Shown piece after piece: positions 1 to 26,180 of a stretch of 26,180 nt of DNA. The notes under the pieces were generated by a model. That model was not told the DNA's origin, searched no databases, and saw only the letters and a program-made list of their open reading frames with translations. Source of the DNA: a virus; the IMG/VR virus record IMGVR_UViG_3300009128_000117, positions 1 to 26,180 of that record; one strand, given 5' to 3'. Each line of letters starts with the position of its first letter. Position 1 is the stretch's first letter. Position numbers and translations under genes: made by a program.

Positions 1-815
1 GCATCATCGCCGTTGGAATAAAAACGAGGCGTTGATCCGTACAGTTGTTGTGCCGACGACATGGCGTTTTCCATTAACGCTTTTTTCATCGTGGGATCGC
101 TCATGAGTATATTCGGATCGAAATCGACACGGGGTACGACAAATGGTTTTTTCAGATCATCTATCGTGTATGTAGATTGTAATCCCATACTGCGGATGGC
201 TCTGTTTTTCGCTCCCGATTCTGCCAATGCCAGTTTGAACTTCTTTTTGACAAGCATGGCTTTTCTGGTCTGGAAATCAATCATTTTTTCGCATTCATCC
301 GTTCCGTATTCGTACTTTTTCTTGTTGACGTAGAACCTGCCATTCATTGCTTTTTCTTCGAGGGCAAATCTGGTTTCGTCTTCGATTGCCTCCAGATCGA
401 TTTCTTTGTCCCCGACAATGGTTTTGATTGTGCCGTCTGTCTGTTTGTATACTCCGACTGCCCGATATTCTACTCTTTTAGGATCGCTTCGGTCATCTAT
501 CCTTTTTGTATCGGATGGAATCCAGCTAATTCCTAAAGCATGCGCAATTCGGTCTAAAGTCGGTTTAGCGAGGGCGTATTGATCTTCCCATTTACCCCTG
601 ACCTGCTTAGTCCCTACTTTGTAGATTTCACCGTCATTCGGGTCTGCGGATATGGTGACCATTTCCAGCGTGACTCTCTGTAACGGAGATATCTCCATAA
701 TCGTGTCCGTCGGTGTCAATTTATTGAATTGATCCGATGGAAACTGCTGATTAATATTCAAGACTCTACCTGTCTTTTTTGGTGCTGGTAGGTCTTGACT
801 TGTGTTTTGTGTCAT
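1..815 (-). CDS. Phage early protein, possibly recombination-related (3' end cut by window edge)
   Basis: An open frame on the minus strand begins with ATG at 815 and stays open to the window edge, giving 271 visible codons. The start is preceded by an AGAGGAAAG ribosome site. The N-terminal 15 residues are polar and low-complexity, followed by a compact domain with motifs LTPTDTIMEISPLQRVT (residues 33-49) and KPTLDRIAHALGISW (84-98). A basic stretch near 184-195 leads to LALAESGAKNRAIRSMGL (195-212) and KPFVVPRVDFDP (223-234). I do not recognise the family with certainty. The Ala-rich helix ending in RAIR followed by a small domain resembles the layout of some phage single-strand-annealing proteins, and the position at the end of the early operon suits recombination or replication. 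That function is inference only. A terminator lies directly upstream, so the gene may have its own promoter or depend on readthrough. Confidence 0.8.
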   Translation of the reverse strand, partial: MTQNTSQDLPAPKKTGRVLNINQQFPSDQFNKLTPTDTIMEISPLQRVTLEMVTISADPNDGEIYKVGTKQVRGKWEDQYALAKPTLDRIAHALGISWIPSDTKRIDDRSDPKRVEYRAVGVYKQTDGTIKTIVGDKEIDLEAIEDETRFALEEKAMNGRFYVNKKKYEYGTDECEKMIDFQTRKAMLVKKKFKLALAESGAKNRAIRSMGLQSTYTIDDLKKPFVVPRVDFDPNILMSDPTMKKALMENAMSSAQQLYGSTPRFYSNGDD

Positions 816-874
816 GGTTACTTTCCTCTTGTGTTATGGTTGACGATAGATGGTGTATCTGTCGTTGTCATTGT

Positions 875-914
875 AAAACCCGACGGTTTCTCCTTAAAAA
901 TCCGTCGGGTTTTT
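875..914. terminator. Bidirectional rho-independent terminator
   Basis: A perfect 12-bp inverted repeat (AAAACCCGACGG at 875-886, CCGTCGGGTTTT at 902-913) encloses a 15-base loop and is flanked by T runs in both reading directions. It follows the stop of the 931-1263 gene and precedes the 815 start, so on the minus strand it would end or attenuate early-operon transcription before the last gene. On the minus strand the loop contains AAGGAG, and a 17-codon frame (871 down to 818) runs from just after the stem to 2 bases before the 815 start codon. Confidence 0.85.
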
Positions 915-930
915 GTTATGGCGTGTCTCC

Positions 931-1263
931 TCATCCGAATAATCCTCCTTGTTTATCAGGATCATTCCAGTTTTTAATTTCTTCTTTTACTTGTTTCGCC
1001 ATCTGATGCCGTTTCTCCCACAGCCGACCCCTGAGTTCGGGGTTTTCTTCCTGTAGCTTTTGCCGGCATCGGCGTACCGATTCCTGATTCGGCAACGACC
1101 CCTCTGCCAGCATGCGTAATAAATCCTGCGCCGATGCAAGGTTTACATCGATGTACTTCCGCTGGATCACTTCATTCCAAATGTTGGCGAGAAGCCTGTT
1201 GTCGTCATCACGTAACTCATCATTGATTGATAAGTAATGTTTGACTCTATCTAATACGTTCAT
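931..1263 (-). CDS. Conserved phage protein of unknown function
   Basis: The frame could start further upstream, but ATG at 1263 has a good ribosome site (AGAGGA) and gives 110 residues beginning MNVLDRVKHYL. The sequence is charged and helical, with no membrane segment. The stretch SVRRCRQKLQEENPELRG in the second half resembles a small protein I associate with phage early regions beside methyltransferase and replication genes; its role is not known to me. It overlaps the upstream small membrane protein by 17 bases and is the last gene before the terminator at 875-914. Its tail is acidic and Gly-rich (DPDKQGGLFG). Confidence 0.8.
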   Translation of the reverse strand: MNVLDRVKHYLSINDELRDDDNRLLANIWNEVIQRKYIDVNLASAQDLLRMLAEGSLPNQESVRRCRQKLQEENPELRGRLWEKRHQMAKQVKEEIKNWNDPDKQGGLFG

Positions 1264-1375
1264 CGCTGTCCTCTTTCCCCGTCGCTGATATGAATACCAA
1301 TAAGACGAACAGAATAATATGGATAACACGGAGTCCTAAGAGTCCGTAGGGCTGTGCGTTTAAGAAGTCAATCAT
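1247..1375 (-). CDS. Small single-pass membrane protein
   Basis: ATG at 1375 is preceded by AAAGGAG at suitable spacing and overlaps the stop of the upstream gene in an ATGA arrangement, so I chose it over the longer frame. The product has 42 residues: a short N-terminal polar segment, one hydrophobic stretch (about residues 16-33, LRVIHIILFVLLVFISA) and a charged tail KEDSDERIR. One membrane crossing with a charged C-terminus is all that can be said. Small membrane proteins in early phage operons sometimes act in exclusion or host modulation, but nothing here proves this. Confidence 0.6.
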   Translation of the reverse strand: MIDFLNAQPYGLLGLRVIHIILFVLLVFISATGKEDSDERIR

Positions 1376-1575
1376 GATACGACTCCTTTCGCTTCCAGCC
1401 ACCAATCCCGTGCTTTCCGGCATTGCTCTAAGGTAGGCTTGACGCAACTGAATAATGTGCCGTCGGTGTGCCTGTAATCATACTGGACGAGGTTTTTGGT
1501 TTTCCGCAGGATGGTTGTCAGATAAGTCTGCCATTGTTCCTTTCCTGCACTTAAAGTGTTAGGTTGTAATGTCAT
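1372..1575 (-). CDS. Small phage protein of unknown function
   Basis: A 67-residue soluble protein. ATG at 1575 follows a TAGGAG ribosome site. The sequence has several aromatic and basic residues, with EQCRKARDWWLEAKG near the C-terminus, and no recognisable motif. Its TGA overlaps the next ATG (ATGA), implying translational coupling to the small membrane protein. It follows the methyltransferase gene after a 34-base gap. Confidence 0.65.
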   Translation of the reverse strand: MTLQPNTLSAGKEQWQTYLTTILRKTKNLVQYDYRHTDGTLFSCVKPTLEQCRKARDWWLEAKGVVS

Positions 1576-1609
1576 TGTGTATTCTCCTATGTTTCAATGT
1601 GTTACACCC

Positions 1610-2710
1610 TTACCATACCTCCAACCTATTATTACATGTATTTGCATTTGCATAAGAAAATAGCTCCTGCTGGGCAAATCTCTTTTTGGCTATCTTGATA
1701 TAATCCTCATTCAGTTCAATGCCTATCCATCGTCTCCCCAATCTCTCAGCCACCCAACCTGTTGTCCCACTTCCGAAGAATGGATCGAGGACGATATCCC
1801 CTACTTTTGAGCCTGCTTTTATGCATAATTCAGGTATCTTTGGTGGGAATACTGCGAAGTGTGCTTCTTTGTATGGTTTGGTGTTTATTGTCCAGACAGA
1901 GCGTTTGTTGCGACCAGATTGAAATTTGTCGTCCCTATATCCTATCCTGTTCTCGATGTTCCTTGCTGATTGCCCGTCCTTATTAAATCCCTTACTACTA
2001 TTCCACTCCCTTGCTTCTTCCCTTATCGCATCAGCATCATAATAATACTTCGCCGATTTTGTGAGTAAGAAAATATACTCGTGTGATTTTGTGCATCTGT
2101 CAGTTACGCTTTCAGGCATTGGATTTGGCTTGTGCCATATAATGTCCTGTCTTAAATACCATCCGTCTTGTTGGAGAGCAATGGCAAGTCTGGCAGGGAT
2201 CATGCATAAATCTTTCGGTTTTAATCCTTTCACAAATGGTTTTGTAAATGAGTTGGTGACGACATTTTGGTTTTTGGTGGTTTCTGTATTTCCTTGCTTG
2301 TGTCCGTTGTATGTATCCCCGATATTCAGGAAAACCGTTCCGTCTTTTCTCAAAACTCTTTTAATTTCTCTGAAAACTTCAACCAAATTTTCTATGTATA
2401 ATTCAGGTGTTTCTTCAAGACCAAGTTGCTGGTCTATGCGTTTTGCTCCACAACGATTGCATACTGCTTTATAAATAACATCACCTATTGCGCCCGCAAG
2501 TTTTTTTTGTCCTGTCGAGCAATTTTCTGAATGTTTATTGTCTCTCTTGTGTGAGCAATTCGGTGTCCCTCCTACCCATGTACCCGTTCCGTAATCACGG
2601 AGTCCCCAATAAGGAGGTGAGGTGATAGCCGTCTGCACGTAGTTGTCTGGTATTTCCTTGAGTTTGTGGAGTACGTGTCCGTGCAGGATGGTGTTAGGTC
2701 GATATTCCAA
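1610..2710 (-). CDS. Beta-class DNA methyltransferase (N4-cytosine or N6-adenine), orphan
   Basis: A 366-residue SAM-dependent DNA amino-methyltransferase. The catalytic motif IV TSPPYW is at residues 30-35, and the SAM-binding motif [11 protein letters not shown] lies near the C-terminus, an order typical of the beta class. TSPPY is commonest in N4-cytosine enzymes but also occurs in N6-adenine ones, so the target base is not settled. The middle has the familiar phage-type stretch [13 protein letters not shown] followed by [11 protein letters not shown]. Between motif IV and the next core segment there is an insert with Cys residues (NCSHK, NCSTG, CNRCGAK) that may bind zinc. The start is TTG at 2710, overlapping the upstream gene by 17 bases and preceded by GGAAGGG. 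No restriction endonuclease is adjacent, so it probably protects phage DNA from host restriction or regulates expression. Confidence 0.92.
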
Positions 2711-3011
2711 GACGTTTGACCCTTCCTTTGATCATGCCTGCCCGGCGTGGTTCTTTAGATGCTAAATTGATTAATCGCTTGTGGTACTCATCCGGATCGG
2801 TTTGTGAAAGATTCACGAGCCGGGTGTTGTAAGCCTTCCTTGCTCTTACTTTCCAGCTTTCTGGCTTGATTCCCTGTGCCTTTTTATCCTCTGCCCTTTC
2901 CTTCGCTTTTCGGATAGCAAATGCGGTACGGCAGTTTTGGCAATAATCACTGTACCCGTCATGGAATCTGCCACAGCGTATGCACGGCATCCGTATGTCT
3001 TGGTTACACAT
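2694..3011 (-). CDS. Small zinc-ribbon protein
   Basis: ATG at 3011 gives a 105-residue protein; an upstream in-frame TTG at 3050 is possible but would overlap the preceding gene by 47 bases and has its SD too close. The N-terminus carries two Cys pairs, CIRCG and CQNC, about 16 residues apart, a typical zinc ribbon. The rest is rich in Lys and Arg and probably helical, suggesting nucleic-acid binding. It overlaps both neighbours by a few bases. Its function is unknown; by position it belongs to the early regulatory or replication set. Confidence 0.7.
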
Positions 3012-3201
3012 GCTTTCTGTGAAATTTTTGCCTCTGGATATAAATTTCAAGTTCTCCCCTGTCTATTCGGTATACTCTGCCGAATTTGTGAGACGGAATA
3101 ACTCCTGTCCTGATGAGTTCAAGTGTCTTTTTGTAGGATAATTGGAGTTCGCTGGCTACCGTCTTCGGTTTCATGAATCGTTTTAAACTTTGGTCTGCCA
3201 T
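3004..3201 (-). CDS. Excisionase/MerR-like helix-turn-helix protein
   Basis: A 65-residue DNA-binding protein of the HTH_17/excisionase type. It has MKPKTVASELQLSYKKTLEL (recognition HTH), then GVIPSHKFGRVYRIDRGELEIYI, the usual wing and final helix. It starts at ATG 3201, two bases after the stop of the previous HTH gene. It is the second of two such proteins in tandem. Either could be the recombination directionality factor that works with the integrase, or a Cro-like early regulator. Confidence 0.8.
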   Translation of the reverse strand: MADQSLKRFMKPKTVASELQLSYKKTLELIRTGVIPSHKFGRVYRIDRGELEIYIQRQKFHRKHV

Positions 3202-3203
3202 CT

Positions 3204-3413
3204 TTAATCCACAGCCATATATGCATCGAGGTCTACTTTTCGGAAGCGGTACATCCCACCGACCTTTTTGGCACGGATTTTTCCCTCCCTCCTCAACCGC
3301 ATGATGTAATCGTAGGGCATATCAAGATATTTCGCCGCTATCTGTGGTCTCATATACTCTTGGTATATTGTTTGTACTTCTTTTCTATCTGTTGTATATT
3401 CTTGTGTATTCAT
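3204..3413 (-). CDS. Excisionase/MerR-like helix-turn-helix protein, first gene of leftward operon
   Basis: ATG at 3413 gives 69 residues; the frame opens slightly earlier, but that would extend into the promoter. After a polar N-terminus the HTH_17 pattern is clear: MRPQIAAKYLDMPYDYIMRL, then REGKIRAKKVGGMYRFRKVDLDAYM. No good Shine-Dalgarno precedes the start, and the predicted transcript leader is only about 20 bases. As the first gene transcribed from the early promoter opposite the repressor, it sits where a Cro or Cox-type protein is expected. I infer a regulator or excisionase role. Confidence 0.75.
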   Translation of the reverse strand: MNTQEYTTDRKEVQTIYQEYMRPQIAAKYLDMPYDYIMRLRREGKIRAKKVGGMYRFRKVDLDAYMAVD

Positions 3414-3428
3414 TGTTAAAAGGTTTTT

Positions 3429-3456
3429 TTGTTGGTGAGAATATAACAACTATGGT
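3429..3456 (+). promoter_or_regulatory. Possible repressor promoter giving a leaderless mRNA
   Basis: A TATGGT -10-like hexamer at 3451-3456 ends 6 bases before the repressor ATG at 3463, so transcription could begin at the start codon itself. A weak -35 candidate TTGTTG is at 3429-3434. No Shine-Dalgarno precedes the ATG, which agrees with a leaderless message like that of lambda cI made from PRM. This is inference from spacing. Confidence 0.4.
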
Positions 3457-3469
3457 TTGCACATGTCAA
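3440..3469 (-). promoter_or_regulatory. Strong early leftward promoter overlapping repressor start
   Basis: On the minus strand a consensus -35 TTGACA (3469-3464) and a -10 TATATT (3445-3440) are separated by 18 bases. The -35 box lies inside the first codons of the repressor gene, so the repressor promoter and this one overlap back to back. A partial dyad GTTGGT/AACAAC with ends at 3431 and 3450 covers the -10 region and is a possible operator. Confidence 0.7.
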
Positions 3470-3834
3470 GTAAAAAGATAACTAAGGTTTCTATTGCAGA
3501 GAAACTGATTACTTATAGAGGTGAGATGAGCCGTCGAAGGTTTGCATCTGAGTTGAAGGTTTCTGATGCATTGATATCCAAATATGAAAAAGGTTCTGAA
3601 CCCGGATTAGACTTCCTTTTCCGCCTTCAGGAGCATTCTGGAGTGTCTATTCATGAATGGGTTACCGGCGATTCTGCCGATATCGTTGCATCCTCACTTA
3701 AGATTAAACGCTTAAAAAAAGAAAAGTCTAATTTGGCTGGTCGCTTTAGCGATTTGCTTAAGGACATTGAAAGTCTGGATAAATCTGATCAAAGAGCGGT
3801 TGTTCGTATGGTTAGAGGTTTGAAAACAGGCTAA
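3463..3834 (+). CDS. XRE-family phage repressor without autocleavage domain
   Basis: A 123-residue DNA-binding protein. Residues about 8-60 form an XRE/Cro-type HTH (EKLITYRGEMSRRRFASELK, then VSDALISKYEKGSEPGLDFL). The C-terminal half is charged and helical and probably dimerises. There is no S24/LexA-like peptidase domain, so RecA-driven self-cleavage is not expected. ATG at 3463 is chosen over TTG at 3457 because of the promoter spacing. It faces the leftward early operon across a 49-base promoter region and leads the rightward operon that ends with the integrase, the usual place for the lysogeny repressor. Confidence 0.82.
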   Translation: MSSKKITKVSIAEKLITYRGEMSRRRFASELKVSDALISKYEKGSEPGLDFLFRLQEHSGVSIHEWVTGDSADIVASSLKIKRLKKEKSNLAGRFSDLLKDIESLDKSDQRAVVRMVRGLKTG

Positions 3835-4727: not shown

Positions 4728-4977
4728 TCTCCTCCCCTTCCAGCTTACCATTCGTTATAATATCAAAAAGCAGATGAAGGTTTCTGGTTTGAGTCAGAAA
4801 ATGTTATCCTCCTCCGTTGGATTGACTCCCGTTGCTGTGTCTCGAATAATGAGCGGAATCACCCCTCTCACGGAACGGCATATCATTATGTTTTCTGAAG
4901 CGTTGCAGGTTGACCCTGAAGTGTTTTTTGCGGATGTTTATGATTCTGAAAAAATAAAGAGGTTGGCAAATGGATAA
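4720..4977 (+). CDS. Second XRE-family HTH regulator
   Basis: The frame opens at 4543, but the part before about 4720 lies out of frame over the previous gene and does not look coding. GTG at 4720 overlaps the upstream stop and gives 85 residues. The XRE/HigA-like HTH is clear: YNIKKQMKVSGLSQKMLSSS, then VGLTPVAVSRIMSGITPLTE, ending in SEALQVDPEVFFAD. It may be a second repressor of the switch or an antitoxin-like regulator, but no toxin partner is recognised next to it. No clear Shine-Dalgarno is present; translational coupling is likely. Confidence 0.75.
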   Translation: MNNLLPFQLTIRYNIKKQMKVSGLSQKMLSSSVGLTPVAVSRIMSGITPLTERHIIMFSEALQVDPEVFFADVYDSEKIKRLANG

Positions 4978-5230
4978 ACTAACCCGTGAGGAATCCCGTG
5001 TTGTTCGGGAGCAATTATTGGATCGTTGGGTGAATTTAATTGATGCTGTTACTGATGCCGAACGGAAAAAGGATACCGACGTTATTACATTGAAGCGTAT
5101 TTCCTCTTTGCTGAAGGAAGTTGGCGGTCTCAGCACATTAACTGGCTTTAGCGATTATATCTGCAAGGAATGTGGTCTTTTAATAAAATTCCCGGAATAT
5201 GGGTGTCGGTGTAAGAATATCGATGGCTAA
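4970..5230 (+). CDS. Small protein with C-terminal zinc-ribbon cysteines
   Basis: An 86-residue protein. ATG at 4970 overlaps the stop of the HTH gene by 8 bases. The N-terminal 60 residues are charged and helical (MDKLTREESRVVREQLLDRW), and the last 25 carry CKECG and CRC, a likely zinc-binding pair set. Its stop overlaps the integrase start. Function unknown; the context suggests the regulatory or lysogeny set. Confidence 0.65.
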   Translation: MDKLTREESRVVREQLLDRWVNLIDAVTDAERKKDTDVITLKRISSLLKEVGGLSTLTGFSDYICKECGLLIKFPEYGCRCKNIDG

Positions 5231-6242
5231 AATATATAAACGTCCCAATAGCCTGTTCTGGTGGGTCACCAGCGGAACACCACCTAATCGGGTACGAAAG
5301 CCGACGACGTTCAAAATTGAGGAGTACCGGAAGTCTGAGGTTCAGAAAATAATAGACCGTGCAGGTATTAATAAATTTATGGCGGCTTTGGGTGAGCCTG
5401 TTAAGAGTGTAAAATTATCCGTCCTTTATGACTCCTACAAAAAAGAAGTGGATATTCGGTATAGCCACGTTCCCGGCGATGCGAAGAATATAAAAAAAAT
5501 TGCTAACCGATTCATGGAGAAAATGGGTAAGAATAAAATCGTCTCTGACATAAGTCCTTTTGATATTGAGACATTTTTATTGTTTCGGTTGAAAAAAGTG
5601 GCGATATCAACGGTCAAAAAAGATAAGGCTTTTATTGGTCGAATGTTCGATGTGGCAAAGTCACAGGAATGGATCGCTGTTAATCCTGTAAGGAAGGTTC
5701 GTAAAAATCTTTTACCGAAGGAAACGCCACGTAACCGTAAAATTAACCGTCGTCCTTTACCCTTGCCTTTGATTAAGAAAGCTATTAAGAAGTCTAAGAA
5801 CGACCGTGACATTCGGTTCTGGTGGACAATGTTGCTTACGGGTGCTGATGCAGGAGATTCTGCATCGATTAAGGATGCTCAGATTGATAAGGATAATAAA
5901 ACGATCACATTTATTCGTGGAAAGAATGGCGAGGAAACCGAGACGATCCCTCTCCATCCCAAGTTGCTTTCCTTCGACCTTGTGAATATCATCCCCGACA
6001 TCACGAATTGGAAAATCAGGCAAAGCCGTGAGCGGTTTCAGGTTTTAATGAAAGAAGTAGGGTATGATGGTCGGGTAGATTTTAAATCTCTCAGGCACAC
6101 GTTTAACCATCTCTTGTCTCGGAATGGTTTAGGTGAAAATGACCGATCTAAATTGCTTGGTCATCAATCAATGAAAACGAACCAGTCTTACACCCATAAA
6201 GATGTGGAGCGTCTCCGGAATGCGATTGATAAGATTGCCTGA
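5223..6242 (+). CDS. int: Tyrosine-family phage integrase
   Basis: A site-specific recombinase of 339 residues, starting at ATG 5223, which overlaps the previous stop; an ATG eight codons upstream is also possible. Residues 1-55 are a short basic arm-binding type region, about 60-165 the SAM-like core-binding domain, and about 180-339 the catalytic domain. Box II is present as K288-S-L-R291-H292, followed by LLGH (His314) and the nucleophile Tyr323 in QSYTH. A beta-hairpin Lys is likely K234 (IRGK). The segment where box I Arg is expected reads TGADAGD (206-212), with Asp209 where TG-x-R normally has Arg. The gene ends 149 bases from a tRNA-derived attachment core, as expected for an integrase acting on its own attP. 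Confidence 0.93.
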   Translation: MAKIYKRPNSLFWWVTSGTPPNRVRKPTTFKIEEYRKSEVQKIIDRAGINKFMAALGEPVKSVKLSVLYDSYKKEVDIRYSHVPGDAKNIKKIANRFMEKMGKNKIVSDISPFDIETFLLFRLKKVAISTVKKDKAFIGRMFDVAKSQEWIAVNPVRKVRKNLLPKETPRNRKINRRPLPLPLIKKAIKKSKNDRDIRFWWTMLLTGADAGDSASIKDAQIDKDNKTITFIRGKNGEETETIPLHPKLLSFDLVNIIPDITNWKIRQSRERFQVLMKEVGYDGRVDFKSLRHTFNHLLSRNGLGENDRSKLLGHQSMKTNQSYTHKDVERLRNAIDKIA

Positions 6243-6249
6243 AAAGTTG

Positions 6250-6270
6250 TGTGACATTTCTGTGACATTT
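6250..6270 (+). repeat. Putative integrase arm-binding repeats, left arm
   Basis: TGTGACATTT occurs at 6250-6259 and again at 6261-6270, helical-phase spacing of 11 bases. Similar copies recur in the same orientation on the other side of the core. Confidence 0.5.
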
Positions 6271-6294
6271 TTTACTTATATTGGTTCTATATCG

Positions 6295-6320
6295 TTCCAC
6301 TTGTTTCCACTTAATTCCAC
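6295..6320 (+). repeat. Triple TTCCAC repeat in attP left arm
   Basis: TTCCAC is repeated at 6295-6300, 6305-6310 and 6315-6320, exactly 10 bases apart. An inverted copy GTGGAA is at 6436-6441, at the edge of the tRNA-like core. This may be a binding site for integrase, excisionase or a bending protein. Confidence 0.45.
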
Positions 6321-6351
6321 TGGGATTATGGAATTTTTGTGGTGGTTTTCC

Positions 6352-15259: not shown

Positions 15260-16198
15260 CTAAGTTGTCGTTTTGTTTGAATGTGGTGCGCCTGTGAATA
15301 AGCAGTTATGTATTCCGTTAAAGCAACCAGCTTGACCCGGAACGGTTGAATTCGCTACCGTAACCGTCCCCGATAAATTGACCGTTGAGCCCGTTACGTC
15401 AATATCACCGTCAGACTCTATTGTGGTTTTCCCTGTGGTTGATATGGAGGTGTCGCCCTCTGTAGTTATCGTTATATTTCCCTTGCTCTGAATTGCCGTA
15501 GTCCCCTCTACGGTTGTAATGCTTGTATTCCCAAGTTCCGTTAGAATGTTGGTATCGCTTTCTTTTGAAATAATCTCCGTTTTGCCCGTTGTTGTTATGG
15601 TTGTATCACCCCGTCCGGTGATGGTAAGGTCGCCGTCAGACTCTATGTCTGTTTGTCCCATCGTTTGGATATGCGTTTTTCCGCTTGCATCAATCTCTAC
15701 GTCTCCGTCAGCGTTCAGGATCGTTTTCCCTTTGGAGTTTAGCACGATACGTCCTTCGTCTCCGTAGGCGTGAATAAAAAGGTTGCCCTTGCTCCCGTTC
15801 AGCGTAAGATGAACATCCCCATATTTGTCTGTATGTAGGTTTATTGCTCCTTCACCTGTAGGTTTTCCATCTTCGTCTTTTGCGATTCGATTAATCTGTA
15901 TGTCATTGTTATCCCCTGATGACATTTTGTCGTCGCCACTGATCATAATAACGTCCAGCACTATCGGCTGTTCTGACTGTCCTTCCACAAATGCCAATAA
16001 TACGAGGTCGCCGACCTGTGGCAACCAGTATCCTTTCCCAGCCACCCTCACGTTTTTATAAATGGTTCGGCTTCGGAAGCTTTCGACGAGTACGCTGTGG
16101 TGCTTTGGACTAATCTCCACCACATGAGCGAGTTCAAATAATCGCCTTCCTTTTACGCCGTCTGACGACGGAACAATGCTTGTCTGATTAATTTGCAT
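15260..16198 (-). CDS. Baseplate central spike (gpV-like)
   Basis: A 312-residue membrane-puncturing spike. Residues 1-95 are an OB-fold-like base (FELAHVVEISPKHHSVLVES, then GKGYWLPQVGDLVLLAFVEG). About 100-275 is a long run of short beta repeats with alternating Gly/Asp and Thr/Ile (GDVEIDASGKTHIQTMGQTD, TTITTTGKTEI), as in the triple beta-helix of gp5 and gpV spikes. The C-terminal 27 residues hold GCFNGIHNCLFTGAPH, an apex-type motif with Cys and His that may bind a metal. It overlaps the hub gene (TAATG), as expected for hub and spike partners. Confidence 0.9.
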   Translation of the reverse strand: MQINQTSIVPSSDGVKGRRLFELAHVVEISPKHHSVLVESFRSRTIYKNVRVAGKGYWLPQVGDLVLLAFVEGQSEQPIVLDVIMISGDDKMSSGDNNDIQINRIAKDEDGKPTGEGAINLHTDKYGDVHLTLNGSKGNLFIHAYGDEGRIVLNSKGKTILNADGDVEIDASGKTHIQTMGQTDIESDGDLTITGRGDTTITTTGKTEIISKESDTNILTELGNTSITTVEGTTAIQSKGNITITTEGDTSISTTGKTTIESDGDIDVTGSTVNLSGTVTVANSTVPGQAGCFNGIHNCLFTGAPHSNKTTT

Positions 16199-18207
16199 TA
16201 GTTATTACCTGTTTCCCAATATTTCCATTCCCGGATAAAATGCTCCGTCGTCCCTTTACAAAGTTCTGTGTTATAATACTGTTTCCAGTAGTTCGCCATC
16301 TGCTGTGGCGTATCTTCCTGATCTAATGCAGGCAGGGTGACTGGCACTCTCCAGTATTTTAATCGGCACATTGCAATTGCAAAGTTTTGATTGTTTTTCA
16401 GTTCGTTTTCTATATCTTCAGTTTGTGCTGTCCACATCCAATCCTTACCAACCCCTGTTTTGTCACTGATGGCTTCCTCTAACGCTATTCTCCTGTCGGC
16501 TAAGCTGTTCAAAAAATCATCGTAATTGCTCTTAGCCGTGTCAGGCTCTACTTGCCAATACGAAAAAGCCTCCTCCCCTTCTTTTGTTTTGTATCCCGAT
16601 TCTGCCGCTCCTGTCGCTTCTACCAACACCTTTGAAGAGTCTGAATTCATCGAGGTGTATTTATCATCTGAATCTGCCATCGACGTTAGTACGTCTTCGA
16701 TATCACTTTGTATTTCAGCCTTTACACTTATATCCGTTTCGGGTTTTTTCGCTTCTTTTTCAGGGATATCGGGAACTGTAACCTTTTTATCCTCAATTTT
16801 CGATTGTCCCTCTTTCCACCAAGCCTGTCTGTTTGAATTCGTTGCCCCTCTTGTTAATGTCAGCGTGGATGTATGCGCTCCACCTACCATATAAGTGTTC
16901 TGTACACCCTCTAAATAATACATGATCTCTTTTCCGCTTCGAGTCTGTATCATTACTTTATCTCCGGCACGATAGTCACTATTTCCTGCCACCGTAATTT
17001 GTCCGCTTTTGTATTTGTGGTTATCCTTATACCACAAGTACAGTTTATTTCTGGTGTCGGTGAACCATTCAAAATAAGATTTTGATTTTTCGCCTTCAGG
17101 AAGTGCGCTGAAATCGTTTATAGGTAAGACGTTTGAGGTAAATGTCATTCCTCTGCATCCTAAAGCCTGCATAAGCTGTGGATCAATAAGCGGAGGGAAT
17201 GCCGCATGCTTTTCAAAATATCCAACGAGAGTTTTTTCATTCGGAACGATATCAAAATAGCTGAAGGCTTCGCCGTGTGACTTGGAGATGTTGTACTGCG
17301 TTATAAGATTGTAAGGTATCGTGTGATATTTGTTCTTTTTCCCCAATGTTGTTAGGATCGGATCATCAATAAATACGCTGAATTCGTTCCAACCTCCATC
17401 GACTGAAAATCCACTGTCATCTTCCCATTTTTCTGTATCAAGGCTGAAGGGTGCAGGTCGCATTCGCAGGATAAGTTTTCCGTCCTTACTATCCGTCCAT
17501 AGTTCCTCTAATGGTTGCATAACGCATGACTTTAAGTATTGCCACAGCGTTCCTTCAAATAATTGTAGTCCTGCATTGTAGATTAACCTGCGATATATTG
17601 TAAATAGGTCAGAGGTGTAATCGATCCTGTCGTATAATGAAAATAACGGATTATTATCTTCTTCAGGGTCTTTATACTCCTGTTCTATTGTTTTGTAGGT
17701 GTCTATAATCGTTGTTATCGCATCGATTGCGCTGGCGGCATAAAAATTTTTTTCGTAAGACCCTTTTAGGATAACATCCACTCTTTTGCCCAAATCTTTA
17801 GGCAGGTCTTCTTTTTTTATCCCTCTGAAATATTTAACGTTGTCGAATAACCACACCGCTCCAAGCGATCTGCCTGTGATGCTGATTCGCCGACTGACTC
17901 CACCTGATGATATCGATCCTTTCTCCACGATTCTGTCAACCAGCCCGACCATAAGCGTGGAGTCTTTTTTCATGTCTATTTCGACCAAGTCCATCGGCGT
18001 GATAACGTCGGCGTAGGTGTTTTGCCCGTCTATCGGTCTGTAGACAAGGTCTATCTGGAATGTTCCTGCGGCTTCGTTTATTTGGTTGTTGGTGGTTATG
18101 GACACGATATCCTTAACGTTTTTTAATCCACTACCAACGAGCAATGTCCCTGCCTTTGTGTAGAAGGTTACTTTAGCGTAGGGTAATCTGTGTTTCCAGC
18201 GGGTCAT
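16198..18207 (-). CDS. Baseplate hub (gpD-like) fused to a C-terminal murein hydrolase domain
   Basis: A 669-residue two-part protein. The first 450 residues look like a late-control-D/XkdQ type hub: KVTFYTKAGTLLVGSGLKNV at the start, INEAAGTFQIDLVYRP, a segment on bound-ring chemistry (VGLVDRIVEKGSISSGGVSR), and near 440 GDKVMIQTRSGKEIMYYLEG. A charged linker (about 470-520) leads to residues about 526-669, which have VEATGAAESGYKTKEGEEAF, SYWQVEPDTAK, FAIAMCRLKYWRVP and YWKQYYNTELCKGTTEHFIR. This resembles phage lysozyme/transglycosylase-like domains; Glu530 or Glu536 could be catalytic. It is thus analogous to T4 gp5 in carrying lysozyme on the hub and would open the host wall during injection. 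Confidence 0.8.
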   Translation of the reverse strand: MTRWKHRLPYAKVTFYTKAGTLLVGSGLKNVKDIVSITTNNQINEAAGTFQIDLVYRPIDGQNTYADVITPMDLVEIDMKKDSTLMVGLVDRIVEKGSISSGGVSRRISITGRSLGAVWLFDNVKYFRGIKKEDLPKDLGKRVDVILKGSYEKNFYAASAIDAITTIIDTYKTIEQEYKDPEEDNNPLFSLYDRIDYTSDLFTIYRRLIYNAGLQLFEGTLWQYLKSCVMQPLEELWTDSKDGKLILRMRPAPFSLDTEKWEDDSGFSVDGGWNEFSVFIDDPILTTLGKKNKYHTIPYNLITQYNISKSHGEAFSYFDIVPNEKTLVGYFEKHAAFPPLIDPQLMQALGCRGMTFTSNVLPINDFSALPEGEKSKSYFEWFTDTRNKLYLWYKDNHKYKSGQITVAGNSDYRAGDKVMIQTRSGKEIMYYLEGVQNTYMVGGAHTSTLTLTRGATNSNRQAWWKEGQSKIEDKKVTVPDIPEKEAKKPETDISVKAEIQSDIEDVLTSMADSDDKYTSMNSDSSKVLVEATGAAESGYKTKEGEEAFSYWQVEPDTAKSNYDDFLNSLADRRIALEEAISDKTGVGKDWMWTAQTEDIENELKNNQNFAIAMCRLKYWRVPVTLPALDQEDTPQQMANYWKQYYNTELCKGTTEHFIREWKYWETGNN

Positions 18208-20351: not shown

Positions 20352-20738
20352 CTAACTCTTTACGAGTTTCTTTTCTTTGGGATTGAGATTTATGCCCATG
20401 TCTGCGAGGTCTTCCTCAATGTCCTCTCCGAATGTCTTGCCGGGAACAATCATGTTCCCTCCGCAATTCGGGCATAAAGTTGAACTTGGATAAGGCTGTC
20501 CTTCGTACCCGCATTCCGGGCAGTTTGGTTGCTCAACCTCGTTCTCTTTCCCAATTTCATCTGACAGCATTTTATCTTCAAGATAATCTAATTCGATTTC
20601 TTCATCTGTCATGTCCAAGTACCGGGAATCTTTCGGGGATAAGTTGTATTTCTGTCTGAACCATTTTCTTAACCACCTATGTTCAAGATTCCTTTTCGCT
20701 TTCGCTTTTAACTTCTTTATCTTCTCCCGCTTCTGCAC
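20352..20738 (-). CDS. Tail assembly chaperone, frameshift extension (GT-type)
   Basis: The frame overlaps the preceding one by 56 bases, and its only early start is a GTG at 20738 without a ribosome site, so it is probably made as a fusion to the upstream protein. It encodes 128 residues: a very basic start (KREKIKKLKAKAKR), then WLRKWFRQKYNLSPKDSRYL and DMTDEEIELDYLEDKM, and a zinc-ribbon pair CPECG and CPNCG with an acidic end. Two overlapping frames directly before the tape measure gene are the standard G/GT layout of tailed phages. The extension would bring tape measure and tube together. Confidence 0.75.
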   Translation of the reverse strand: MQKREKIKKLKAKAKRNLEHRWLRKWFRQKYNLSPKDSRYLDMTDEEIELDYLEDKMLSDEIGKENEVEQPNCPECGYEGQPYPSSTLCPNCGGNMIVPGKTFGEDIEEDLADMGINLNPKEKKLVKS

Positions 20739-21060
20739 GGGAGTCTGGGGTACGAAAAAAGCCGGATTCCTTTATCCATGCACCCCACAAACCAAGTAAC
20801 TTCTTGGTGTCGTATTCCGATTCTGCACTCACCCAATCTTTTGGTGCATCTATTATTCGAGCATCTAACTGTACGACGATATCTGCAAGAAACGCCATTT
20901 CTTGGTCTCCCTCATTTATCGAGTTTGCTAAATCTCCATAATGCCCACCTGTTACAGCCTGTTTTTTACCTGCAAGGGATAATTGCTCCCTTATGGTCAG
21001 GCTCTTTTTTAGGGTGTATTCCTGTCCTTCGTATTTAAGGATAACTGTTTCAACCGCCAT
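20683..21060 (-). CDS. Tail assembly chaperone (G-type)
   Basis: A 125-residue protein starting at ATG 21060 with an excellent AAGGAGG ribosome site. The N-terminal half is beta/helical (VETVILKYEGQEYTLKKSLT, TIREQLSLAGKKQAVTGGHY), the middle is helical, and the end is charged (AEAGEDKEVKSESEKES). It directly follows the tube gene and overlaps the next frame by 56 bases. By position and layout it is the short product of the tail chaperone pair that coats the tape measure during tail assembly. Confidence 0.75.
   Translation of the reverse strand: MAVETVILKYEGQEYTLKKSLTIREQLSLAGKKQAVTGGHYGDLANSINEGDQEMAFLADIVVQLDARIIDAPKDWVSAESEYDTKKLLGLWGAWIKESGFFRTPDSRAEAGEDKEVKSESEKES
20752..20760 (-). promoter_or_regulatory. 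Candidate +1 programmed frameshift site
   Basis: In the frame of the first chaperone the minus strand reads GGC TTT TTT CGT, with TTT TTT at 20760-20755. A +1 slip of the Phe tRNA from TTT to TTC leads into GTA CCC CAG, which is open and in frame with the second chaperone. A -2 slip at GAA AAG GAA nearer the stop gives the same frame. The fusion through the first site would be 235 residues. Confidence 0.45.
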
Positions 21061-21530: not shown

Positions 21531-23255
21531 CTATATTACTGAAATAGTTTCAATGAGGAAGAAGTTGAACGGGTTGTTAAACCGCACACTATATTTCACA
21601 TGCCAGCCGTCATCCAATCTGCTTGCGATGATATTTTCCCAAGCGGGCAATGTATTATTCGGGTCTGAATCATTACCTGCGATGATTCCTTCAGCTTCTT
21701 TATCATTAAGATAATTCTGCACGAATGCCATGACAGTATCACGTCCTATCCCTGTTGTTCCTCCGATGAATTGTTTATCAGCCGCTACCCTGAGTTCTTT
21801 CGAGACTTGGTCGCTGGCTCTTATCAAACTGATTTCTGGTGATGCGTTGGTTGTTCCATCCCAGAGATTCAGATTGTTTTGCATGGTGTTGATACCTTGA
21901 TTCACTATAAAGCCGAGTCCCTCGTAGTAACGGGGAGCAAGTACGCCTGCATTAATTAATTGCTCTCTCTCTGCTTTTGTGAAATTGTATTGTAATCCCG
22001 TACAACTGAATACTTTGTGTGTTAACGGTTCTTGAACGGGTAGTCCTGCAATAAGTCCTGCTATTTTAGCGGCAAAGAATTTAGGTGCAATCGCTTCCGT
22101 TCCAGATCCGTCTTCCGTGTAATCTGATATTCCGCATGCGACCAAGATTGATCTTGCGCTGTTCAGCGTTTTGGCTCTTGTAATAGAGTCCGATAATGCC
22201 AATGCTTTCGTGGCTTGATTAGAACCTCCGAATACGGCGATCCTCTCATTCTCGGCATCATTTCTGCAATGACCGTCCACCAATGCGTGATGTGCGGCTA
22301 TATCTGAATCAATGTAGACTATCTGGCAGTTTTGCTCTCTGATTTCTGTCAGCGCATTGCCTATACTGGTCACGTCCCAATCAGTTGCTGAACCTCCTGC
22401 CAAGAACTCATATCCCACTGTGTTGGTTATCTGTGTCCCTGCCGTTTCTACGGATGCTGTAACGTATTCAGAGTTCGTATTTACCCATAACTGTACGATG
22501 TATGGATAAGCGGCTAATTCCTTCTGCACCGTGCAGGCTGCCAGTGCCAAGTCATCGAGGTAGGATGAATCTAATGCTCCTACACCTGCTGGGGCATCTG
22601 CGTAAATCGAGCAACTCCAGTCTGCTACTTCATTAATGGCATTCGCTATCTTGCTTATGGTGTTATATGCACTCAATGAAAAATCAAATGAGAAATCCTC
22701 CGTATAAACAGGCGGTTGTTCTCCATTGCCTATTTTCCCTGTGATTGCTCCATCTGCAACTTCAATTTCCGCATTCGATTTTGAGCATTGTACGCTTAAT
22801 GCGAATCCCAGATTATCTGCGATTTCGAAATCGTCAACGTAATTGATGGTTACCTTAGTCGTGTCATCGTCTGTCCCATCTTCTACTTTAATTTTAATAA
22901 AGTTCGTCCATGCACCGTGATCTCTGGCTGTGAATTTTACACTTCCTTTGGTCAGGCTTCCTTGCACCGCTTGTTGCGCTCTGATAAATCCGACTGCCGG
23001 CGCACCGTCATGCTGTGGCGATGGATTAAAGATGTACCCAATTGATCTGAGGGCATCTCCGGATCGGAGGACTTCTGTTGCTTCCGATTTGTCGGAAAAC
23101 CACAATACTTTATTCGGTTCACCACCTTCACTTTTACCAAGCACGATAACACGTCCCGTTGCCAGAGGATTTGCCTTTGGCGGAATACCCACAATCAGCC
23201 GACTTGCGGCTTGTGGTTCTCTGAGTATCTTGCCGTTGAATTTTATTTGGCTCAT
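21531..23255 (-). CDS. Contractile tail sheath protein
   Basis: A 574-residue sheath. The C-terminal third has typical sheath features: IAPKFFAAKIAGLIAGLPVQ, PLTHKVFSCTGLQYNFTKAE, the strand GLGFIVNQGINTMQ and RASDQVSKELRVAADKQFIG, followed by a helix-rich region (RDTVMAFVQNYLNDKEAEGI) and the strand KYSVRFNNPFNFFLIETISV that would interlock subunits. The N-terminal domain (up to about 100) contains TGRVIVLGKSEGGEPNKVLW. ATG follows AAAAGGAG. It proves that the tail is contractile. Confidence 0.95.
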   Translation of the reverse strand: MSQIKFNGKILREPQAASRLIVGIPPKANPLATGRVIVLGKSEGGEPNKVLWFSDKSEATEVLRSGDALRSIGYIFNPSPQHDGAPAVGFIRAQQAVQGSLTKGSVKFTARDHGAWTNFIKIKVEDGTDDDTTKVTINYVDDFEIADNLGFALSVQCSKSNAEIEVADGAITGKIGNGEQPPVYTEDFSFDFSLSAYNTISKIANAINEVADWSCSIYADAPAGVGALDSSYLDDLALAACTVQKELAAYPYIVQLWVNTNSEYVTASVETAGTQITNTVGYEFLAGGSATDWDVTSIGNALTEIREQNCQIVYIDSDIAAHHALVDGHCRNDAENERIAVFGGSNQATKALALSDSITRAKTLNSARSILVACGISDYTEDGSGTEAIAPKFFAAKIAGLIAGLPVQEPLTHKVFSCTGLQYNFTKAEREQLINAGVLAPRYYEGLGFIVNQGINTMQNNLNLWDGTTNASPEISLIRASDQVSKELRVAADKQFIGGTTGIGRDTVMAFVQNYLNDKEAEGIIAGNDSDPNNTLPAWENIIASRLDDGWHVKYSVRFNNPFNFFLIETISVI

Positions 23256-24347: not shown

Positions 24348-24758
24348 TTATCCGGTATTTATGGATTTCATCCTTTCAGATAGTTCTATCGCTCTATTCG
24401 GCGTTTGCCTTGCCCACTTGCTGGACAGCATTTCTTCGCCGGCTTTGCTCCACCGTTGTTTTTTTATGTGTTCAATGGTCTTTTTGAACCGGGCAACACC
24501 GTTTAATCCAAGCTGGTACACCATCTCTATAATTACATTCTGTGCTTTCAATGGTGTTTCTCTGAACCACCAAAACGCTTCATAGCACCGGATCGTTATA
24601 TCAGCCAATTTCCGCTCCAAAATGATTGAGGCAATATCCTCATCCAGCCGTAGGTCTTTTATGGCGAATCCGTATCCGATAGTGTCGTGTCCTTCCGTAC
24701 ACCGATACACCCTGTCTCTGTACCCTTCATGGCTCTTTATGGATTCAAGAAGTGTCAT
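24348..24758 (-). CDS. Endolysin, T4-type lysozyme (GH24 muramidase)
   Basis: A 136-residue cytoplasmic-type lysozyme that would cut the MurNAc-GlcNAc bond of peptidoglycan at the end of infection. The N-terminus aligns with T4 lysozyme without gaps: Glu11 in IKSHEG, and Thr26 in HDTIGYG. The residue at position 20 is Cys, not Asp, in VYRCTEG; the E-8-(D/C)-5-T pattern is known in this family and Cys is tolerated. The C-terminal half has GLNGVARFKKTIEHIKK and ARQTPNRAIELSERM. It has no signal peptide, so release depends on a holin. Its start overlaps the stop of the membrane protein gene upstream (ATGA). Confidence 0.92.
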   Translation of the reverse strand: MTLLESIKSHEGYRDRVYRCTEGHDTIGYGFAIKDLRLDEDIASIILERKLADITIRCYEAFWWFRETPLKAQNVIIEMVYQLGLNGVARFKKTIEHIKKQRWSKAGEEMLSSKWARQTPNRAIELSERMKSINTG

Positions 24759-25054
24759 TTATTGTCGCTCCGTAATCCGTCTACAAACTTCTGAATGCCA
24801 TTAACGAGGATATTGTCGATTGCATCAATAATGTAAGGCTCAACAGTCTTGTTCCATATCTTTTTCGTCCATTTCCATTTTGCCAGTCCAAGTGTGCAGG
24901 CTACGCCTAATCCGTACATCATTGCTCCGAATTTTGCCTTAATTACATCATTCGGGATTCTTTTGAGTATCCATGCTACCACGACGGCTAATAATCCGCC
25001 GGTTGCATATTGGATTGCTTCTACACCTGCTTTCGCTATGATCCATTCTAACAT
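24755..25054 (-). CDS. Putative holin, two membrane segments
   Basis: A 99-residue membrane protein directly upstream of and overlapping the lysozyme gene. Hydrophobic stretches are at about 15-32 (IQYATGGLLAVVVAWIL) and about 44-60 (FGAMMYGLGVACTLGLAKW), joined by a short polar loop. The C-terminal tail is charged and amphipathic, about 40 residues. The start follows ATAGGAGT. Two hydrophobic helices, small size and lysozyme linkage fit a class II-type holin, but no family motif is recognised. Confidence 0.6.
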   Translation of the reverse strand: MLEWIIAKAGVEAIQYATGGLLAVVVAWILKRIPNDVIKAKFGAMMYGLGVACTLGLAKWKWTKKIWNKTVEPYIIDAIDNILVNGIQKFVDGLRSDNK

Positions 25055-25063
25055 ATCTAACTC

Positions 25064-25306
25064 CTATTGTTTGTTTAATCTTTCAATGAGTCTAAACACC
25101 ATCATAACCACCCCGCTTGTGATGGCGACGATCCACACCCATTTGAATCTCTCCCACGACTTCCGAAAATCTGTGTTTTTTTCAACATCGCCAAGAAGCC
25201 CTCTGTCTTTTCTGTCTCCCTTTTTTCCACGTAAGGTTTCATCTATCTCCTTAAATGCCTCTTGCAATTCTTCGTATCCAGCCACGATTCCGCTTCCTTT
25301 CGTCAT
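25064..25306 (-). CDS. Small C-terminally anchored membrane protein of the lysis region
   Basis: An 80-residue protein with a helical charged N-terminus (GYEELQEAFKEIDETLRGKK), a basic loop and one hydrophobic stretch near the end (FKWVWIVAITSGVVMMVFRL), then five polar residues. Such a helix-plus-C-terminal anchor layout resembles XhlA-like and other holin-helper proteins. ATG at 25306 overlaps the response-regulator frame by 56 bases and has no strong ribosome site; a GTG about seven codons later would reduce the overlap. It may be a second lysis protein. Confidence 0.6.
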   Translation of the reverse strand: MTKGSGIVAGYEELQEAFKEIDETLRGKKGDRKDRGLLGDVEKNTDFRKSWERFKWVWIVAITSGVVMMVFRLIERLNKQ

Positions 25307-25715
25307 ATTCTTGTAATGCTTTACGTGTTTTCTTTAGGGTCTCCAACATATCTTTCAGCATATCTGCAAATCTTAACTTAGCTTCAATCCGACTCATTAA
25401 TTCTTCAAAATCAAACGGCTTCGCAATTTTGTCCACAAATTCGTCTATTTCGATATCCGACATATCGTTTCCGCTGATGTATATTACCGTCGTGGCGTTA
25501 CCGTTAATTTCTTTTATCATCTTCATTCCGTCGATTATCGGCATTTTAACATCAGCTATCACAAGGTCATACTTCACCTCTTTCGCATATTCAATCGCAC
25601 TTTCCGATGACGTTGTGTAATCTATTTCTATTCCACGAAACTTCTTTTTAAGCCATATTGTTATTAGATCAACAATAAGGCTGTCGTCGTCAACGATTAG
25701 GATTCGGCTACTCAT
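25251..25715 (-). CDS. Stand-alone response-regulator receiver domain protein
   Basis: A 154-residue protein. Residues 4-122 are a complete CheY-like receiver: acidic pocket D9-D10-D11 (ILIVDDDSLI), phosphoacceptor D55 in VIADVKMPIIDG, the conserved Ser at 81 (YISGND), and Lys99 in KIAKPF. All residues needed for phosphotransfer and switching are present. There is no DNA-binding or enzymatic output domain; residues about 115-154 form a basic helix/coiled coil (LKDMLETLKKTRKALQEYDE). It is encoded in the phage late operon between the collagen-like gene and the lysis genes. I infer that it takes phosphate from, or competes for, a host histidine kinase. ATG at 25715 has no clear Shine-Dalgarno. 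Confidence 0.9.
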   Translation of the reverse strand: MSSRILIVDDDSLIVDLITIWLKKKFRGIEIDYTTSSESAIEYAKEVKYDLVIADVKMPIIDGMKMIKEINGNATTVIYISGNDMSDIEIDEFVDKIAKPFDFEELMSRIEAKLRFADMLKDMLETLKKTRKALQEYDERKRNRGWIRRIARGI

Positions 25716-25718
25716 TTT

Positions 25719-26180
25719 CTATTTACTTGCGTTGAATTTCTTTGTTGTTCCGCTTATGACAACCTCAAGTTGTCCTTTACTGTTAAACGTGATGCTTGTG
25801 ACGTTGGAAAGGTGGCTGTTGCCTGTCGCTCCAGTATTACCTTTGTCTCCTTTGTCTCCTTTATCGCCTTTTGCACCGTTACTGCCGTTTGTTCCGGGAT
25901 TACCTTTGTCTCCCTTATCGCCTTTATCCCCTTTTGCTCCGGGTGAACCGGTCGATCCAGCACTACCTGTATCCCCTTTTAAACCTTGTATACCCTGTGA
26001 ACCTGTATTGCCTTTGTCTCCCTTATCACCCTTTGCTCCAGCACTACCTGTATCTCCTTTGTTACCCTTGTAGCCACGAAGCCCTCTATCGCCCTTTGCC
26101 CCTTGTGAAGAAGCAAGCGAAGAATCATCACCAAAAGCATCATGGATATAATTCTTTACGAGTTCTACTTCATCATACAA
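25719..26180 (-). CDS. Collagen-like protein (5' end cut by window edge)
   Basis: A frame open to the right edge of the window, with 153 visible codons; the first codon there is TTG and the true start probably lies outside. After about 25 ordinary residues it has roughly 31 Gly-X-Y triplets (GAKGDRGLRGYKGNKGDTGS; GDKGDKGNTGSQGIQG), a collagen-like triple helix rich in KGD, broken by none or few interruptions. It ends with a 30-residue beta-type domain (SNVTSITFNSKGQLEVVISG). Phage collagen-like parts usually sit in fibres or tail tips. It is placed upstream of the response regulator, with only 3 bases between stop and next start. Confidence 0.8.
   Translation of the reverse strand: MYDEVELVKNYIHDAFGDDSSLASSQGAKGDRGLRGYKGNKGDTGSAGAKGDKGDKGNTGSQGIQGLKGDTGSAGSTGSPGAKGDKGDKGDKGNPGTNGSNGAKGDKGDKGDKGNTGATGNSHLSNVTSITFNSKGQLEVVISGTTKKFNASK

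Follow-up and report, generated by a model that had tools for sequence, protein, structure and literature searches.

The moment at which a phage lyses its host is usually seen as set by a fixed holin clock, for which few inputs are known: lysis inhibition in T4 and N4, and collapse of the membrane potential. The holin of Bacillus PBSX has a partner, XhlA, and neither of the T4 antiholins RI and RIII is known to be a phospho-receiver. Host signalling can reach phage genes through transcription, as in CtrA-mediated lytic deferment, in which a host regulator controls them (PMC9437464). In the Alteromonas phages V22 and A5, a CheY-like gene has been classed by its authors as a class II auxiliary metabolic gene (AMG) in a 'host recognition module' (PMC7289586, PMC10579305), with its neighbours given as hypothetical (PMC10579305), and gp48 of phage R8W has been named PhoB (PMC8228385). 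Among the full texts accessible to us, a body of literature that leaves most subscription journals outside, we found no paper proposing a lysis role for phage response regulators or kinases; the genes are called 'auxiliary metabolic' or 'PhoB', and none is named as a component of a lysis cassette.

The window, by which we mean the whole stretch of DNA analysed here, is a linear IMG/VR record of 26,180 bases and is itself a fragment. At 25251..25715 on the minus strand it carries an open reading frame with an ATG start whose 154-aa product was identified as a stand-alone CheY-like receiver by Pfam, a residue check and an AlphaFold2 model. The PF00072 match covers receiver residues 5-111 and the whole profile (1-111) with 65.9 bits and an E value of 4e-18, far above chance given the curated cut-off of 30.2 bits. 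Checking by position confirmed D9, D10, D11, D55, K57, M58, P59, S81, K99 and P100, and the catalytic set is complete, with the acidic pair D9/D10, the phospho-acceptor D55, S81 and K99. The usual Tyr/Phe 'switch' position is occupied by K96. Receiver families were the only ones above cut-off in Pfam and PHROGs, which indicates that the protein lacks an output domain. Its C terminus is basic, with a net charge of +6 to +7 across the last 14-15 residues, and part of this tail is encoded in a dual-coding stretch, since the next ORF (25064-25306), as first drawn, starts within the gene and shares its final 56 nt.

AlphaFold2 modelling on an alignment of 30 viral receivers gave a mean pLDDT of 91.7, with five strands (residues 4-8, 30-34, 51-55, 76-81 and 95-98), helices at 12-25, 37-46 and 63-71, and a single continuous C-terminal helix of 51 residues (103-153). 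Helices 1, 2, 3 and 5 are thus formed in the model; alpha-4 is absent from it, with residues 82-94 being non-helical. The best sequence match is to PmrA receivers, and the closest solved structures are ordinary receivers, PmrA by Foldseek and Spo0F by VIA-align (Z 19.2, rmsd 1.3 over 110). We rejected the assignment to OmpR/PhoB-type factors because there is no output or DNA-binding domain and residues 103-153 form one helix. The initial annotation, made from sequence alone, had described a CheY-type receiver with DDD, D55, S81 and K99 intact, no output domain and a basic C-terminal helix; the Pfam match and positional check, the restriction to receiver families in Pfam and PHROGs, and the charged, helical tail of the model bear out each of these points. 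The lack of alpha-4 in the model and the lysine at the switch position add to that description.

In the order of transcription, the receiver follows a collagen-like tail gene and is followed by genes for an 80-aa one-TM protein, a 99-aa protein, a lysozyme, two proteins of unknown function and a tail sheath. The collagen-like tail or fibre gene (25719..26180, minus strand; PF01391 E 1e-18, with PHROG tail fibre matches) is cut by the contig end, and its stop lies a few bases ahead of the receiver ATG. The one-TM protein (25064..25306, minus strand), identified from the ORF and a TM scan, has a hydrophilic N-terminal part and a C-terminal TM segment near residue 56, and matched no family in Pfam or PHROGs; from its position and topology, it is the likely partner of the receiver. 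No clear ribosome-binding site precedes the ATG drawn for this gene. The true start may instead be a GTG seven codons in (25283-25285), which comes after AGGAAG and has the better ribosome-binding site. The next gene (24755..25054, minus strand) encodes a small putative membrane protein of 99 aa, whose hydrophobic stretches lie below the TM threshold used and for which no significant family match was found in Pfam or PHROGs; by position it is a candidate holin. Neither the 80-aa nor the 99-aa protein matched a recognised holin or XhlA family in these two databases. The lysozyme gene (24348..24758, minus strand; 136 aa) matched PF00959 with 31.1 bits (cut-off 22.3 bits) and the phrog_7 endolysin family (3.7e-12), and its start overlaps the preceding gene by 4 nt. 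A PF00959 lysozyme and a one-TM protein, co-directional and within one tightly packed operon, make up a lysis cassette by the test that we used.

Downstream of the lysozyme lies a myovirus tail operon with a phrog_279 sheath (21531..23255, minus strand; E 1.5e-58) and a phrog_6 baseplate protein, which places the cassette within a myovirus late operon. This agrees with the earlier description of a receiver amid virion and lysis genes: the collagen-like gene lies upstream, and the one-TM protein, the putative membrane protein, the lysozyme and the tail operon lie downstream. The contig also carries a DNA methyltransferase, tail and baseplate genes, a repressor-like HTH gene and a tyrosine integrase (5199..6242, plus strand; phrog_1 E 3e-31), and given the integrase the phage is probably temperate. 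No HATPase_c kinase gene was found on the 26-kb contig, itself a fragment. Two overlapping ORFs between the tube and tape measure genes (20683-21060 and 20352-20738, minus strand) resemble a frameshifted pair of tail assembly chaperones, and the C-terminal part of the product of 16198-18207 (minus strand) matches phrog_3108, the family of the annotated endolysin gp14 of phage PT15-A5.

Scans of IMG/VR for relatives of the receiver, the sheath and the one-TM protein found only one other contig, which carries the receiver gene at 100% identity; bacterial genomes scanned with the sheath yielded no match, and tblastn of the receiver against INPHARED returned only general superfamily matches and records that look contaminated by host DNA. 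Judged by homology alone, the receiver looks like a single occurrence. The initial annotation had held that capture on one occasion, with no recurrence in related phages, would count against its reading; this is what we see for close homologues, with one identical contig, and not for the arrangement, which recurs.

We scanned IMG/VR with a degenerate receiver signature that required the Asp and the MP..G region and obtained at least 80 loci, whereas patterns restricted to K-M-P or to TTR codons gave few. Among the matches listed, stand-alone receivers (RR below) lie between small membrane proteins, often with 4-nt overlaps. In one locus (L076), a one-TM coiled-coil protein, RR and a 178-aa TM protein precede an M15-like peptidase (a weak match); another (L056) has a one-TM protein, RR and membrane proteins, with an Amidase_2 gene about 1.4 kb downstream; in L034 a PF00959 lysozyme lies upstream of TM, TM, RR and TM genes; L078 has TM, RR, TM and a LysM endolysin; L011 has a PG-binding endolysin, an XhlA-like protein, RR and terminases; and L109 has an XhlA-like protein (phrog_937 5.7e-7) followed by RR. 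A kinase domain occurs in 2/21 lysis-linked receiver records. In L068 (IMGVR_UViG_3300042518_001860, 1267-2237) the order is SLT-like enzyme, one-TM protein, RR and HisKA protein, with the HisKA/HATPase protein directly after the receiver; this phage lysis block apparently encodes a complete two-component system. In L006 (IMGVR_UViG_3300032278_000141, 4969-6345) a hybrid histidine kinase-receiver shares an operon with a GH108 lysozyme; with its N-terminal TM segment and a small TM protein in the operon, it is a phage-encoded sensor in a lysis block. A 15-kb tailed-phage contig (L003, IMGVR_UViG_3300022690_000356, 392-3542) has three separate receivers, one of which precedes the genes for a one-TM protein resembling XhlA and a TM protein resembling a lipoprotein. 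The one-TM protein of the window and that of this contig gave no match in sequence comparison, their likeness being one of topology only.

Among the matches listed, a small TM protein (up to 200 aa) stands beside the receiver in 18/46 viral loci, de-duplicated and with a tight co-directional neighbour, versus 0/32 cellular stand-alone receivers, which were taken from genome contigs via a different query (Fisher P 1.3e-5). Again among the matches listed, pairs with a TM neighbour numbered 25/67 for receivers versus 48/327 for other 100-185 aa genes of the same viral loci (P 4.6e-5; P 0.007 in a gene-level version of this comparison), in a test that was not blind, as the hypothesis arose from the same viral loci and the cellular set and cultured phages came later. 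PF00959 lysozyme and Amidase_2 matches were few in 44 other receiver-bearing records, and no such match came closer to the receiver than about 4 kb; the link to lysis therefore concerns only some viral receivers. A Pfam search of 117 immediate neighbours of receivers revealed no single dominant family, which argues that the arrangement is not one mobile module.

A BFVD structure search with the window model returned as its top viral match the 149-aa receiver of Alteromonas phage V22 (TM 0.73/0.75), an independent route to the receiver-in-lysis-block arrangement. Receivers beside a holin, spanin, XhlA-like protein or endolysin are found in the Alteromonas phages V22, PT15-A5, PB15/XX1924, R8W/H4 and R9Y1, which span several unrelated lineages. 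V22 has fibre, chaperone, papain-like amidase, coiled-coil protein, RR, Rz-like spanin (phrog_4297 7e-6) and 2-TM protein genes; the schitovirus PT15-A5 has a coiled-coil protein, RR, an Rz-like spanin (2.9e-8), a 2-TM protein and an annotated endolysin. These two blocks are homologous and belong to a transferred module that the two phages share (PMC10579305); they are not independent, and we counted them as one lineage. In PB15 the order is XhlA-like protein (phrog_937 1.8e-16), RR, M15 endolysin (phrog_894 1.6e-31) and GTA_holin_3TM (PF11351 3e-16); in XX1924 it is XhlA-like protein, RR, DUF5675 (where PB15 has the M15 enzyme) and GTA_holin_3TM. The T7-like phages R8W and H4/4 have a class II holin (phrog_1356), a one-TM protein, RR, a membrane protein and terminases, with 4-nt overlaps on either side of the receiver, and R9Y1 has fibre, one-TM coiled-coil protein, RR and lysozyme genes. 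Unlike the window, other phages with the receiver arrangement do carry recognised holins. A check suggested in the initial annotation, whether receivers recur next to holin or lysozyme genes, thus came out positive in both metagenomic and cultured phages. Its remark that such receivers are rare in phage late operons did not hold: cultured examples exist, filed as AMG or PhoB (PMC7289586, PMC10579305, PMC8228385).

MW043865 gp48 (L234:14436-14897) and MF278336 gp44 (L235:13325-13786) are named 'DNA-binding response regulator' or PhoB and, at 153 aa, have the length of a receiver only, so they are probably mis-named. Many receiver-bearing 'phage' records (OR84xxxx-OR85xxxx, CAKLQF/CAKLQH, MT835xxx-MT839xxx) resemble contaminating host chromosome, which would inflate counts of phage two-component genes.

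Both the window and several unrelated lineages of phages have a catalytically complete receiver as part of the lysis gene block. All 23 lysis-linked receivers retain the acidic pair, the Asp and the Thr/Ser, and 22/23 retain the Lys; the Asp and MP..G region were built into the scan pattern, so only the acidic pair, Thr/Ser and Lys count as independent evidence, and four cultured receivers among the 23 were not pattern-selected. Lysis-linked receivers have a median of 90 residues after the Asp, compared with 68 in cellular (P 2e-5) and 70 in other viral receivers (P 6e-5). They are polyphyletic, with at least seven changes forced by well-supported branches; a single origin was rejected (AU p 3e-4), with the caution that the alignment has 121 columns and resolution is poor.

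One way to read these data is that the receiver is a decoy for host signalling, which absorbs phosphate from host kinases or binds CheA, flagellar or stress targets and so alters host behaviour late in infection. The complete phosphorylation site, the lack of an output domain, the usual absence of a kinase from the records and the classification of the gene by the V22 and A5 authors as a host-function AMG (PMC7289586, PMC10579305) all fit. Left unexplained are the longer C-terminal tail and the repeated, often 4-nt-overlapping placement, across unrelated phages, among genes for XhlA-like proteins, holins, spanins and endolysins, and we regard a decoy as rather unlikely, together with its corollary that late promoters alone account for the place of the gene in the lysis region. 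It is unlikely, too, that receivers are accessory cargo, repeatedly captured from hosts at the lysis/fibre end of a late operon that acts as a hot spot tolerating extra genes. Polyphyly, the movement of the A5/V22/P24 module between phages (PMC10579305) and the many viral receivers located elsewhere would be expected of cargo; retention of the active site in 22-23/23, the special tail length of the lysis-linked receivers and their enrichment relative to other like-sized genes of the same contigs among the matches listed would not.

The integrase and repressor-like HTH gene of the window phage, and the precedent of the host response regulator CtrA, which controls phage genes in 'lytic deferment' (PMC9437464), could point to a transcriptional or lysogeny regulator that governs late genes or induction together with a DNA-binding protein of the host or the phage. 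We think this very improbable, as the receiver has no DNA-binding domain, its gene lies in the late lysis block and not among regulators, and the same arrangement occurs in R8W, which is described with a rapid lytic cycle (PMC8228385). There is least to be said for a role in the structure or assembly of the tail or virion, with the receiver fold put to a new use, which we hardly credit: the receiver comes after tail-fibre genes, directly or within a few genes, in the window, V22, A5, XX1924 and R9Y1, but the complete catalytic set would be superfluous in a structural protein, and the R8W receiver comes after holin and one-TM genes.

We give about even chances to the reading that we prefer, in which the window protein is a phosphorylation-gated cytoplasmic regulator of lysis timing that uses host phosphodonors and acts on the adjacent one-TM coiled-coil protein or on the holin. 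The receiver would be made late, alongside the lysis proteins, and would take phosphate from a host kinase or from acetyl phosphate; we propose a host donor because a kinase is usually missing from the phage. Depending on whether it is phosphorylated, the receiver would make different contacts, through its alpha-5/C-terminal helix, with the cytoplasmic portion of either the one-TM coiled-coil (XhlA-like) protein or the holin, and holin triggering may thereby be advanced or delayed, so that lysis time would track the signalling or energy state of the host. The tie to lysis drawn in the initial annotation is supported in part, in that the arrangement recurs in metagenomic and cultured phages with the phosphorylation residues kept. 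Against a role in lysis timing, many viral stand-alone receivers are not lysis-linked, the membrane proteins of the window are without a match among holin and XhlA families, the only close relative found for the window receiver is on one identical contig, and cargo genes also gather at the ends of late operons. More tentatively, and at somewhat less than even chances, phages may have independently and repeatedly built a phospho-receiver into the lysis cassette, which would couple holin triggering directly, at the post-translational level, to the two-component or acetyl-phosphate state of the host. With similar reserve, and falling a little short of an even bet, we suggest that this coupling is a previously undescribed kind of lysis-timing device. 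If true, encoding a receiver in the lysis cassette would give phages a general means of sensing host signalling at the final step, and the labels 'auxiliary metabolic', 'PhoB' or 'hypothetical' under which such genes are now listed would have to change. Culturable Alteromonas phages with small genomes carry the receiver beside recognised holins and endolysins, which makes a lysis role directly testable.

The window receiver shares its fold and catalytic residues with stand-alone receivers of the CheY/Spo0F type (PF00072), and differs from them in being a phage gene in a lysis cassette, in lacking alpha-4 in the model, in having K96 at the aromatic-switch position and in carrying about 40 extra C-terminal residues in one helix. 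V22 gp30 and A5 gp11, which are CheY-like, are stand-alone receivers of similar length placed after tail-fibre genes, as in the window; their sequence identity to the window protein is at superfamily level only, and their neighbours, of unknown function in the papers, are identified here as an Rz-like spanin and a 2-TM membrane protein. R8W gp48, from a T7-like phage, resembles the window receiver in having 153 aa, matches to receiver families only and a position two genes after a class II holin; it is annotated as the DNA-binding protein PhoB, yet has no DNA-binding part. Antiholins and lysis-inhibition regulators (T4 RI/RIII; N4 gp62, PMC12642591) are encoded in the cassette and set holin timing, as we propose here. 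N4 gp62 is not a phospho-receiver, and the 'Receiver domain' of N4 merely names part of its pinholin (PMC12642591). CtrA-mediated lytic deferment has in common with our proposal the idea of a two-component regulator that reports host state to phage lysis; CtrA is the host's own regulator and acts on promoters, whereas the receiver of the window is encoded by the phage and has no DNA-binding domain.
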